Shown here in pieces: positions 48,183 to 52,503 of a stretch of 64,000 nucleotides of DNA. The position numbers and the translations under genes were made by a program. The notes beneath the pieces are model-generated. The model saw nothing but the letters and a program-made list of their open reading frames with translations. It had not been told where the DNA came from and searched no databases. Numbering within the stretch: position 1 is the stretch's first letter; the number at the start of each line of letters is the position of its first letter. The stretch comes from Skermanella rosea (lineage in GTDB: Bacteria; Pseudomonadota; Alphaproteobacteria; Azospirillales; Azospirillaceae): assembly GCF_016806835.2 (NCBI RefSeq), contig NZ_CP086111.1:4705471-4769470 (forward strand). The letters run 5' to 3'.

Positions 48183-48477
48183 CGGTTCCGTCCCATTCCT
48201 CGTGGATAGTGCGCGCCCAGTGGATCGCCAAAGGTGTCGCAGAATGACTTCGTGGCATTTTCATGATGCCTGTCGCCGCGGGGGGAACCAACCACAACCG
48301 GCCCGGCAAATCAATCTCCGGCCTCCGCAAGGGGCGGCGACTATGTCAGGCTACCCGTATCGAAATGGGCGCCGCCTGCGCCCCGGCCGCTCCCGGCTTG
48401 ACTTGGCGGCTTGACTTGGCGGCCCGGAAAACCAGCATAGCTCTGGTATGATCGCCAACGGTGACGGAGCTTCGACC

Positions 48478-49521
48478 ATGATCGGACCGGCAGGACGCGC
48501 GGCCTATGCCCTCAGCCAGACCGCCCGCATCTCGTGGTTCTTCGGGCAGTACCTCCTGGCGGCCAGGCTGAACGGCCGGGTCGTGCCCAGGGACCGGCTG
48601 CCCAAGGATCTGAAGACGCCTGACAGGGCGGTCATCCTGGCCGACATCAGGGAGCTGATGCGCCGCGACTTCGCCAACATCGACGCCGGCTACTACCGCA
48701 TGCCCCACGACATGGTGGAGCCGCCGCGCAAGGTGCTGCGCGACGCGGTGCGCTTCTTCCAGGACCTGCCGGAGGTGCGGCGCCGGCGGCGCGACCGGAT
48801 CGCCACCGAGGTCTTCGAGGAGCGGCGGGCTGAGGGCGCGAAGCTGCCGCGCTACTATCTTCAGAACTTCCATTACCAGACCGACGGCTATCTCAGCGAC
48901 CACTCGGCCGAACTGTACGACCATCAGGTGGAGGTGCTGTTCGGCGGCGGCGCGGACGCGATGCGCCGGCAGGCGCTGGTGCCGCTCCACCATCACTTCC
49001 GGGAGCGCAGGGTCTCCGAGTGCAGGCTCCTGGACGTGGCCTGCGGCACGGGGCGCTTCCTGACCTTCGTGAAGGACAATTACCCCCGGCTGGACGTCAC
49101 CGCCCTGGACCTGAGCCCGAACTACCTGCGCCAGTCCCGGCGGCTGCTCAGCCCCTGGTCGCGGACCCGGTTCGTCCAGGCCGCGGCGGAAAGCATACCG
49201 GCCCCGGACGAGAGCTTCGACGCCGTCACCTGCATCTACCTGTTCCACGAACTGCCCCGCAAGGTGCGGGCCGCCGCCGCGGCCGAGATGGCGCGGGTGC
49301 TGAAGCGCGACGGCATCCTGGTCTTCGTCGAGACCCTGCAGAAGGGCGACCGGCCCGACTATGACGGCCTGCTGGACCTGTTCCCGCTGGCCTTCTACGA
49401 ACCCTACTACGACGACTATATCCGCCAGGACATCGGCGCCCTGTTCTCGCAGGCCGGGCTCGAAATCGTCGAAACGACGCTGGCGTTCATGTCCAAGGTG
49501 GTGGTATTGCGCAAGCGGTGA
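48478..49521 (+). CDS. SAM-dependent methyltransferase (UbiE-like) with N-terminal extension
   Basis: A 347-residue class I methyltransferase. Residues 1-165 are a helical extension (LPRYYLQNFHYQTDGYLSDH) and the catalytic domain follows: LLDVACGTGRFLTFV (SAM motif I), VTALDLSPNYLRQSRRLL, PAPDESFDAVTCIYLFHELP and VLKRDGILVFVETLQ. The substrate is unknown, though this type often acts on quinones, lipids or polyketide-like molecules. GGAG eight bases before ATG 48478 supports the start over ATG 48448. It is divergent from pgk. Confidence 0.88.
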   Translation: MIGPAGRAAYALSQTARISWFFGQYLLAARLNGRVVPRDRLPKDLKTPDRAVILADIRELMRRDFANIDAGYYRMPHDMVEPPRKVLRDAVRFFQDLPEVRRRRRDRIATEVFEERRAEGAKLPRYYLQNFHYQTDGYLSDHSAELYDHQVEVLFGGGADAMRRQALVPLHHHFRERRVSECRLLDVACGTGRFLTFVKDNYPRLDVTALDLSPNYLRQSRRLLSPWSRTRFVQAAAESIPAPDESFDAVTCIYLFHELPRKVRAAAAAEMARVLKRDGILVFVETLQKGDRPDYDGLLDLFPLAFYEPYYDDYIRQDIGALFSQAGLEIVETTLAFMSKVVVLRKR

Positions 49522-49720: not shown

Positions 49721-51304
49721 ATGGCAAGCCAGGAGATCGAGCTGAAGCTGCGGGTCGAGCCGCAGCATCTGCCCCGCTTCCGCAATTCCCCGGCACTGGC
49801 CGGATCGGCGGGCCGTCCGGCCGCCAAGAACCTCGAGAGCGTCTATTACGACACCGAGGACCTGCGCCTGCGCAGCCGCGACGTGACATTGCGGGTCCGC
49901 AAGCAGGGACGCAGCTTCGTCCAGACCATCAAGGCCGCCAACGAGCATGCCGGCGGCGTGTTCAGCCGGGGCGAGTGGGAATGCGCGGTGCCGACCGCGG
50001 AACCCGACCTCGCCGCCGTGACGGACGAGGAGCCGTTGCGCCGGCTCGGCCCGATCACCCAGGCCGACCTGCGGCCGGTCTTCGCCAGCCACGTCAAGCG
50101 GCAGGTCCGGATGCTGAACGGCGCCGCGGGCCGCGGCCCCGAGACCGTGATCGAGGTCGCCATCGACCAGGGCGAGATCCGGACGTCCGGCGGCGACGTC
50201 ATGCCCCTGGCGGAGCTGGAGCTGGAGCTCAAGGGCGGCGACCCCCAGGCCCTGTTCGACCTGGCGCTGGAGCTGTCGGGCGTGGCGCCGCTGCGGATCG
50301 AGACCCGTACCAAGGCGGAGCGCGGCTACGCCCTGGCCGCGGGCGAGGCCGAATCGGCGGTCAAGGCGCAGAAGCTGATGCTGACGCCGGACCATACCGC
50401 CGAGCAGGCGCTGGCCTCGATCATGCGCAACTGCCTGAGCCACGTGGTGCTGAACGAGGCGTCGGCGCTCAAGGGCGCCGACCCCGAGGGCGTCCACCAG
50501 ATGCGGGTGGCTCTGCGGCGCCTGCGCTCCGCCCTGGGACTGTTCCGCAAGCTGGTGCCGGCGGACCAGTACGGCTGGCTGGCCGCCGAGGTGAAGTGGC
50601 TGGCCGGCGAGCTCGGCAACGCGCGGGACTGGGACGTCTTCCTGGCGGACCTGCTGGCCCCGGTCGAAGGCGCGCTGGACGAGGAATCCGCCCGGGGCGG
50701 CCCCCTGAGCGCGCTGCGGGAAGCGGCCCTGGCGAGCCGGGAGCGGGCCTATGAACGCGCGCGGGCGGCCATCCTGTCGGCTCGCTACACCACCCTGCTG
50801 CTCAAGCTGGGAAGCTGGCTGGAGGCGCGCTCCTGGCGCCAGCAGCCGCTGTCGGAGGAGGCGGCCCGGCTGTTCGCCCCCGTCACCGACCTCGCCGACG
50901 GGCTGCTCGCGAAACGGCACAAGCAGTCGCGCCGGCGCGGCGCCGGCTTCGCCCACCTGCGCGCCGAACAGCGGCACGAACTGCGCATCTCCCTGAAGAA
51001 ACTGCGCTACGCCGCAGAGTTCTTCCGCTCGCTCTACGGCGACAAGGCCACGGCGAAGTATCTCCGCCGGCTGGCCGCCCTGCAGGACGACCTGGGCCAC
51101 CTGAACGACGTCGCCACCGCGGAGTCCCTGATGGGGCGGCTGGCGGCCGAGCAGGCCGGCGGTCCCGAGCTGTGGCGGATCGGCGGCGGCATGGTGATCG
51201 GCTGGCACGCCCGCGGCGTCGCCCAGATCGAGCCGAGGCTGATCCAGGACTGGGAGAATTTCGCCGCGGCGAAGCCTTTCTGGTCGAAGGCTTCCAACGG
51301 GTAG
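49721..51304 (+). CDS. CYTH-CHAD domain protein (triphosphatase / polyphosphate-binding)
   Basis: A 527-residue protein. Residues 1-205 are a CYTH triphosphate-tunnel domain with the E-x-E-x-K motif at E5-E7-K9 and tunnel strands DVTLRVRKQGRSFVQTIKAA and LAELELELKGG. Residues about 225-520 are a CHAD domain of helical repeats with basic histidines: HQMRVALRRLRSALGLFRK, ELGNARDWDVFL and RHELRISLKKLRYAAEFFRS. CHAD domains bind polyphosphate and can target proteins to polyphosphate granules. The upstream 200 bases are unusually AT-rich and should carry its promoter. A ParA-type ATPase follows 18 bases later. Confidence 0.92.
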   Translation: MASQEIELKLRVEPQHLPRFRNSPALAGSAGRPAAKNLESVYYDTEDLRLRSRDVTLRVRKQGRSFVQTIKAANEHAGGVFSRGEWECAVPTAEPDLAAVTDEEPLRRLGPITQADLRPVFASHVKRQVRMLNGAAGRGPETVIEVAIDQGEIRTSGGDVMPLAELELELKGGDPQALFDLALELSGVAPLRIETRTKAERGYALAAGEAESAVKAQKLMLTPDHTAEQALASIMRNCLSHVVLNEASALKGADPEGVHQMRVALRRLRSALGLFRKLVPADQYGWLAAEVKWLAGELGNARDWDVFLADLLAPVEGALDEESARGGPLSALREAALASRERAYERARAAILSARYTTLLLKLGSWLEARSWRQQPLSEEAARLFAPVTDLADGLLAKRHKQSRRRGAGFAHLRAEQRHELRISLKKLRYAAEFFRSLYGDKATAKYLRRLAALQDDLGHLNDVATAESLMGRLAAEQAGGPELWRIGGGMVIGWHARGVAQIEPRLIQDWENFAAAKPFWSKASNG

Positions 51305-51322
51305 GATAGGATCGCCGCCACC

Positions 51323-51949
51323 ATGCTCACAGTCCTCGTCGCCAACATCAAGGGCGGTTGCGGCAAGACCACGATCGCAACCCATCTGGCGGCCGCCTTC
51401 GCGACGGCCGGGCAGAACACCCTGCTGGCGGACGTGGACCGCCAGAAATCCAGCCTGGGCTGGGTCGACCGACGTCCGGCCGATGCGGCTCCCCTGACCG
51501 GGCTGGACTGGAGCAAGGACCTGGCCACGCCGCCCAAGGGCTCGGGCCGGCTGGTGATCGACGCGCCGGCCGCGCTCAAGACCAAGCAGATCGAGGAACT
51601 GGTCAGGCTGGCCGACGTGATCGTGCTGCCGGTGCTGCCCAGCACCTTCGACGAGCAGGCGACCCGGCGCTTCCTGGACAAGCTGGAAGAGCTGAAGCCG
51701 ATCGCGAAGAACAAGAAGGCGGTCGCGGTGGTCGGCAACCGGCTGCGCGCCCGGACCCGGTCGGCGGACCGGCTGGACGAGTTCCTGGACGGCGTCGGAC
51801 ACAGGGTCGTGACCCGGATCCGCGACACTCAGCTCTACCCCGACACCGCCGCCACGGGCCTGAGCCTGTTCGACCTCAAGGGCAAGCGCGTCGGCGACTA
51901 CCGAACCGACTGGGAACCGCTGCTCAGCTACATAGCGCTGGTGGAATAG
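51323..51949 (+). CDS. Small ParA-family ATPase
   Basis: A 208-residue ParA/MinD-superfamily ATPase with deviant Walker A KGGCGKTT (signature K10, P-loop K15), switch region LLADVDRQKSSLGW and the Walker B-like LVIDAPAAL. It lacks an N-terminal HTH, so it is the short type that positions plasmids or protein cargo rather than chromosomal ParA. It follows the CYTH-CHAD gene by 18 bases and is surely co-transcribed. No ParB is nearby; an unrelated low-complexity protein gene follows 230 bases later. AGGA lies 11 bases before ATG 51323. Confidence 0.9.
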   Translation: MLTVLVANIKGGCGKTTIATHLAAAFATAGQNTLLADVDRQKSSLGWVDRRPADAAPLTGLDWSKDLATPPKGSGRLVIDAPAALKTKQIEELVRLADVIVLPVLPSTFDEQATRRFLDKLEELKPIAKNKKAVAVVGNRLRARTRSADRLDEFLDGVGHRVVTRIRDTQLYPDTAATGLSLFDLKGKRVGDYRTDWEPLLSYIALVE

Positions 51950-52075
51950 ACTCCCCGATCGAGGTAGTCCAAAATTACTGGACAGGTTCCAGCAAACTCG
52001 ACGGACTGAGCGGCCCCAGACCGGGCCGGCGATGTCCAAGCCCTGGAAAAACCCATCGGGGCGGCGGCTTTCCCA

Positions 52076-52091
52076 CCACTTTCAAAAGTGG
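52076..52091. promoter_or_regulatory. Inverted repeat overlapping the sigma-54 promoter
   Basis: CCACTTT (52076-52082), CA, AAAGTGG (52085-52091) is a perfect 7-base inverted repeat whose right arm covers the first bases of the -24 element. This placement suits a repressor operator or a structural element; the binding protein is unknown. Confidence 0.5.
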
Positions 52092-52104
52092 CACGCGGCT
52101 TGCT
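52089..52104 (+). promoter_or_regulatory. Sigma-54 (RpoN) promoter, exact consensus match
   Basis: TGGCACG (52089-52095), CGGC, TTGCT (52100-52104) matches the -24/-12 consensus TGGCACG-N4-TTGCW at every fixed base with correct spacing. Transcription would begin near 52115, giving a leader of about 65 bases to the Gly/Ser-rich gene at 52180. Confidence 0.75.
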
Positions 52105-52179
52105 GATAGAGGAAGCATCGGCGGACGGCGACGGTGCCGACGGCGAACTGGAACAAACCTTCGATCAGCGGAGAAAATC

Positions 52180-52437
52180 ATGAGCACCAATGTCGGCGTT
52201 GAGCAGAGCGGCAAGTCGGGCGGCGACGCGTTCGGTCACTCCACCTCGGGTTCCATGGGCGTCGGCGGCGCGGGCCTGGGCTCCGCCTCGGCCTTCGGCG
52301 GCTACGGCAATGGCTCGGCCTCGGGCACCGCGTCGGGCTTCGGCGGCGATGCCGGCTCCAGCTCGGCCGCCTCGGGCGCCCTGGGCGGCGACGTCAGCGA
52401 CAACACCTCGATCGGCTCCATCACGATCAACTCCTGA
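52180..52437 (+). CDS. Gly/Ser/Ala-rich low-complexity protein
   Basis: An 85-residue protein of strongly biased composition, with segments such as GSMGVGGAGLGSASAFGGYG and SGTASGFGGDAGSSSAASGA, and an ending DNTSIGSITINS. It has no signal peptide, membrane helix or known domain, contains no cysteine or tryptophan and is probably disordered or self-assembling. GGAG six bases before ATG 52180 is a strong ribosome binding site. It has its own sigma-54 promoter and a strong terminator, so it is a genuine single-gene unit rather than a chance frame. Position after a ParA ATPase suggests an adaptor or cargo protein (inference). Confidence 0.8.
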   Translation: MSTNVGVEQSGKSGGDAFGHSTSGSMGVGGAGLGSASAFGGYGNGSASGTASGFGGDAGSSSAASGALGGDVSDNTSIGSITINS

Positions 52438-52463
52438 TCGCTGACGGACCTTCGGGTCAGGAA

Positions 52464-52503
52464 AAAGGCGCGGTGCCCCCTGGGCGCCGCGCCTTTCCGT
52501 TTT
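52464..52503. terminator. Strong terminator, probably bidirectional
   Basis: AAAGGCGCGGTGCCC (52464-52478), loop CCT, then GGGCGCCGCGCCTTT (52482-52496) forms a 15-pair stem with a single G-T wobble, followed by CCGTTTT. It lies between the Gly/Ser-rich gene (plus) and the small membrane protein gene (minus) and can serve both, since the other strand also has an A/T-rich flank. Confidence 0.85.

Follow-up and report, generated by a model that had tools for sequence, protein, structure and literature searches.

What does a small ParA-type ATPase do when its gene lies directly behind that of a CYTH-CHAD protein? The question is raised by a locus of Skermanella rosea within the window, the whole stretch of 64,000 nucleotides that was analysed, which is part of the main 6.1-Mb contig of a 7.76-Mb genome. 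ParA/MinD relatives with known function mostly position cargo. The preliminary description of the locus had proposed that it spaces or segregates polyphosphate granules, with a small low-complexity protein as a third component. In the Azospirillum group the CHAD gene precedes a small ParA gene nearly always, which suggests ATP-driven placement of polyphosphate granules; the third component did not hold. Excerpts of a 2023 study (PMC10241942) show gene neighbourhood being used to link ParA ATPases with their cargos, and note that the name orphan is given to many of them.

The locus and its two products

The features are listed in Table 1. The ORF coordinates confirmed that the CHAD gene and the short ParA gene are 18 bases apart, as described beforehand, and the short gap suggests that they may be co-transcribed. 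The earlier statement that the locus holds no ParB applies to the five other neighbouring ORFs scanned with Pfam besides CHAD and ParA; the ParB gene beside parA that marks a ParABS system was missing from this set. A methyltransferase gene (window 48448-49521) lies upstream of CHAD on the same strand, as it does in several Skermanella and Azospirillum loci.

Table 1. Features of the locus, with window positions and the basis of each assignment.
Feature	Position	Strand	Basis
CYTH-CHAD protein, 527 aa; proposed polyphosphate-granule receptor and ParA cargo adaptor	49721-51304	+	Pfam CYTH, CHAD; predicted fold
Intergenic gap CHAD/ParA, 18 bases	51305-51322	+	ORF coordinates
ParA-type ATPase without HTH, 208 aa; proposed positioning ATPase	51323-51949	+	Pfam CbiA/AAA_31; predicted fold
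Gly/Ser/Ala-rich ORF, 85 residues	52180-52437	+	ORF; no Pfam name

The ATPase matched the CbiA/ParA-type P-loop and AAA_31 families in Pfam. Its motif KGGCGKT, with K10 and K15, bore out the signature lysine K10 attributed to this 208-residue protein earlier, and K10, K15, D39 and D80 were invariant in two ParA alignments (23 and 30 sequences). With the signature lysine, the Walker A' and Walker B aspartates and a MinD-like fold, it has the features of a deviant Walker A ParA/MinD ATPase. The predicted structure (pLDDT 91.2) gave ParA 3cwq and ParF as best PDB folds; it also matched MipZ and Soj, and McdA at rank 16. By profile, the closest solved relative was the TP228 plasmid partition ATPase ParF/ParA (4dzz, 3e-21), which it also resembles in fold and size. 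Unlike the TP228 protein, the present ParA is encoded on the main contig, with no ParB-type gene among the scanned neighbours. The score against the NCBIfam model ParA_partition (NF041546) was 121.8 bits, below the curated cut-off of 180 bits.

Pfam matches of the CYTH-CHAD protein were strong for both domains (CHAD 7.7e-64, 216 bits; CYTH 6e-25), and the best PDB folds for its predicted structure (mean pLDDT 86.9) were ygiF (5a60) and the CHAD structures 6qv5, 6qv7 and 6qva, the last of which is a polyphosphate complex. The ExExK motif, which we take to be the catalytic-type motif of CYTH, is present in the window protein and is nearly invariant across 13 linked CHADs. In the alignment of the same 13 proteins the HxxRxxxR motif, H259-R262-R266 in the window CHAD, was invariant. 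It aligns with the H-x2-R-x3-R of the Chlorobium CHAD, whose His253, Arg256 and Arg260 contact polyphosphate (excerpts of PMC6537752) and to which, by numbering, the three window residues probably correspond. The protein thus combines a CHAD domain with aligned polyphosphate-binding residues, the sequence feature expected of CHAD phosins, proteins that localise to polyphosphate granules.

Two further CHAD genes occur in the same genome. One encodes a second CYTH-CHAD protein (L164, C1:1616000-1624000) and has a SixA-like phosphatase gene on one side and an M1-type peptidase gene on the other; of the genome's two PPK1 genes, one is divergent from this phosphatase-CHAD pair. The remaining CHAD gene is CHAD-only (L165).

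Recurrence of the CHAD-ParA pair

Whether CHAD and ParA adjoin outside this genome had been posed beforehand as a refuting test for the proposal, and adjacency was found in the window's family, in a sample of the class and among named relatives. ParA was detected (E <= 1e-20) in 19 of the 23 family genomes searched, the window's own included, and CHAD in 23 of 23. By coordinates, 18 of the 19 ParA-bearing genomes have the CHAD gene immediately upstream of ParA and on its strand, the sole exception being a draft (G019) with ParA and its CHADs on separate contigs. A random neighbour would be a CHAD gene in about one case in a thousand (a rough estimate from one to three CHAD genes per genome), and the adjacency is far above chance. 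The class sample of 289 genomes gave 14 strong ParA matches (at least 226 bits; next match 112 bits), eight of them directly downstream of CHAD and spread over four families: G000, G014, G015, G021 (f1), G217, G103 (f82), G152 (f131) and G101 (f80). A CHAD gene is present in all 14 of these ParA genomes; in the sample as a whole 102 of 289 have one. Among named relatives, CHAD was followed by ParA on one strand in 35 of 76 ParA loci, mostly of Azospirillum, with others from Skermanella, Arenibaculum, one Roseomonas-labelled record and MAGs including L062. The CHAD-ParA gene link is real and recurrent.

Shared synteny can arise without shared function: an orphan ParA with a different task may have come to lie beside CHAD in an alphaproteobacterial ancestor and been carried along, an account that we consider improbable. 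Genes beyond the pair are likewise kept in many loci, namely PGK or methyltransferase upstream and a kinase downstream, and many f1 loci have PGK at the flank with or without the methyltransferase; this is what passive carriage would give. Against carriage, CHAD and ParA keep one strand and, where starts are clear, a gap of approximately 7-46 bases, with 112 in a single genome; the downstream kinase, in contrast, stands at varying distances. In one locus (L155) the CHAD and ParA frames share 4 bases; ORF starts in the named-relative set are uncurated and some gaps come out negative. Its recurrence across four families, three of which differ in what flanks the pair, also argues against carriage, the flanks being LpxR in f82, a hydrolase and a dehydrogenase (both upstream) in f80, and PGK; so do a reversed gene order in G637 and a run with polyphosphate kinase genes in L062. 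On the side of carriage, distance correlation found no specific co-evolution signal, the value for CHAD-ParA given PGK (0.76) being no higher than that of the control kinase (0.78).

Unrelated neighbours of ParA elsewhere also fit with carriage. The pairing is not universal, as the ParA family extends beyond it. In the Magnetospirillum-type loci (L063-L088) the same ParA family occurs with no CHAD adjoining, and its scanned neighbours vary from locus to locus. The Pfam scan, which covered part of the unlinked ParA loci, identified radical SAM genes (L063, L068, L092), S15 peptidases (L093), rpoN (L088), EF-G (L095), panC-panD (L138) and ilvD (L143). MarR and response-regulator genes stand ahead of ParA in L077, and in Magnetospirillum sulfuroxidans T7-like phage head genes directly precede it (L066, 3410-6627). 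By tblastn, a histidine kinase like that of the window is followed by ParA in several loci of Magnetospirillum and relatives (L065, L070, L075-L079, L087, L094, L096). The kinase-linked ParA of Magnetospirillum type perhaps serves another cargo or another kind of control.

Outside the Alphaproteobacteria the pairing was sparse: within flanks of 1.5 kb, CHAD was found in one of 28 ParA loci from 26 genomes (L136). Wider stretches were read for G555, G637 and G532, and in G555 CHAD lies 3.6 kb from ParA. ParA was searched across all 398 genomes of the phylum sample and was present in 28; with CHAD coordinates taken among the matches listed, CHAD occurs in 18 of the 28, and in 196 of 398 across the sample as a whole, so that the excess is weak. 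Conversely, four family genomes (G009, G011, G013, G018; three are drafts of more than 250 contigs) keep CHAD with no ParA detected, and two of them retain the methyltransferase-CHAD order, so ParA seems dispensable to CHAD.

Trees were built for ParA and for CHAD (97 CHADs minus 16 duplicate or partial loci, minus 18 near-identical Azospirillum loci, plus 7). On the ParA tree the starred branches require two or more switches of linkage label, and on the CHAD tree three or more, and the link was thus gained or lost more than once; the trees are quick ones with several long branches, compatible with repeated gain or with gain plus losses. Two candidate signatures of linkage were rejected. A C-terminal FW tail of CHAD was present in unlinked proteins too, and ParA residues that might be diagnostic of linkage came down to two conservative changes.

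Polyphosphate context and the proposed role of the pair

A genomic tie to polyphosphate metabolism was found in a Rhodospirillales MAG (L062, single contig PIVK01000013.1), where CHAD, ParA, PPK2 and PPK1 run in one direction and ParA and PPK2 overlap by 4 bases. Genome G248 has CHAD-PPK2-PPK1 without ParA, and its CHAD groups with the L062 CHAD on a starred branch. PPK1 was present in 39 of 40 ParA genomes, a count that has no baseline for comparison. It adjoined ParA in 0 of the 40 (nearest approximately 14 kb, in G480), and PPK1 beside ParA was rejected as a rule. Two non-alpha proteobacterial genomes have ParA, CHAD, SixA-like phosphatase, DUF6394 and TrkA-type genes clustered in differing orders (L160, L159). 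The order in G637 is SixA-like phosphatase-ParA-CHAD-DUF6394-x-TrkA, with ParA and CHAD reversed, and in G555 it is ParA-DUF6394-TrkA, with CHAD 3.6 kb away followed by a SixA-like phosphatase. DUF6394/TrkA was rejected as a general ParA partner, DUF6394 occurring in 3 of 40 genomes.

The closest published arrangement, known here from papers alone, is that of Acidithiobacillus, in which parA is near CYTH-CHAD and ppk: excerpts describe a conserved group folD-ppk-parA-CHAD (PMC10892726) and a CYTH-CHAD operon that includes parA (PMC6416229). The papers present the cluster as gene context, in connection with cAMP signalling or copper resistance; PMC6416229 takes the operon to couple energy status, through cAMP, to metabolism and to cell division. 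Granule positioning is not proposed in the excerpts of either paper, and in excerpts of the literature on CHAD phosins a ParA neighbour appears in the Acidithiobacillus context only.

We regard it as an evenly balanced proposition that CHAD and ParA form a two-gene unit for granule positioning, with CYTH-CHAD as the cargo adaptor. To judge from its family, the CYTH-CHAD protein would coat polyphosphate granules through its CHAD domain. By analogy with ParA and McdA, the ATPase would dimerise with ATP, bind the nucleoid non-specifically and be released on meeting CHAD-coated granules; the granules would then track ParA gradients, and so be set apart from one another over the nucleoid and distributed between the daughter cells. 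Such a cycle implies that CHAD may contact ParA physically and stimulate its ATPase activity.

The likeness to the carboxysome-positioning system McdA/McdB is that a ParA-type ATPase is encoded beside a proposed cargo-binding protein. The present ATPase differs from McdA in its signature lysine K10 and in its closest folds, 3cwq and ParF; its partner is a folded CYTH-CHAD protein and not a small McdB. Known ParA partners touch ParA through a basic N-terminus (excerpts of a preprint, PMC12204374). Counted from the predicted start codon nearest the CYTH block in 39 linked loci, 35 CHADs had a net charge between -4 and +1 across 20 N-terminal residues and so showed no basic ATPase-contact peptide of McdAB type; there was no call for four, L062 included. 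The fuller proposal falls just short of an even chance: ATP-driven positioning and partition of polyphosphate granules, in which a polyphosphate-binding CYTH-CHAD enzyme would itself be the partner and would contact ParA by a surface that differs from the known basic N-terminal peptides. On this view CHAD and ParA came together or separated on several occasions within Proteobacteria.

Spacing of polyphosphate granules on the nucleoid is described for P. aeruginosa, where AlgP, a histone H1-like protein and not an ATPase, is the proposed granule tether (excerpts of PMC9239181). AlgP is also the name given in the table entry for polyphosphate granules of a 2025 review, which says in the excerpts that the need for similar energy expenditure in their case remains to be seen (PMC13052382). 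Searches of open-access PubMed Central turned up no proposal of granule positioning by CHAD and ParA. The conserved pair provides a testable ATPase candidate for spacing or sharing such granules in bacteria, with Azospirillum as workable hosts, and the CHAD pairing gives a likely cargo to an otherwise orphan ParA family. If the proposal is true, a storage granule joins the cargos moved by ParA.

The pair could also be functional in a way other than positioning, with ParA as an ATP-dependent switch on the triphosphatase activity or polyphosphate binding of CHAD, or as a link between polyphosphate status and chromosome segregation or the cell cycle. We consider this rather unlikely. The retention of ExExK in the window protein and its near invariance in the linked CHADs are in its favour, as are the SixA-like phosphatase and PPK genes that neighbour some loci, the persistence of CHAD without ParA, and the connection of energy status with cell division drawn for Acidithiobacillus in the excerpts of PMC6416229. 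The general record of ParA/MinD relatives as positioners of cargo speaks against a switch, and the present data hold no pointer to specific enzymatic control.

The glycine-rich gene downstream

The remaining candidate component is the 85-residue Gly/Ser/Ala-rich ORF, which does come next in line (24 G, 19 S and 10 A). The preliminary description had made it the adaptor of a trio resembling McdA/McdB, a reading now largely refuted and very improbable. The gene adjoins ParA in the window genome and in two close Skermanella genomes, as a trio would have it. In S. stibiiresistens, however, two copies lie 2.7 kb from ParA, and in S. aerolata the gene is beside a membrane ORF and a histidine kinase on a contig other than that of ParA; among the loci compared it was found near ParA only in Skermanella. 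The product, with one K and no R, has a net charge of -4, and it matched nothing in Pfam or NCBIfam. The three-gene adjacency expected from the description was therefore conserved for the CHAD-ParA pair, once with polyphosphate kinase genes (L062), and not for the third gene, which fails as the small low-complexity adaptor gene kept beside the ATPase in McdAB-type systems.

A perfect match to the -24/-12 consensus, which we take to be sigma54-type, starts at 52089, 140 bases after parA. No other site on either strand of the 64 kb comes within one mismatch of the consensus, so that the promoter that the ORF had been said to possess at this distance is plausible as a prediction. Of 24 genomes searched, 9 have homologues of the gene; G011 has seven, and five Skermanella genomes have four or five apiece. 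In 8 of 10 paralogue upstream regions, a sigma54-type site that departs from the consensus by one base at most lies about 91 bases (range 89-107) before the ORF start. Since the paralogues are dispersed and mostly have sigma54-type promoters of their own, and since the S. aerolata gene is on a separate contig, the trio is unsupported and the ORF was rejected as an adaptor; it is most likely an independent unit and not a component of CHAD-ParA. Together with its relatives (window 52089-52437 and L166-L177), it belongs to a family of small Gly/Ser-rich proteins that may form a sigma54 regulon.
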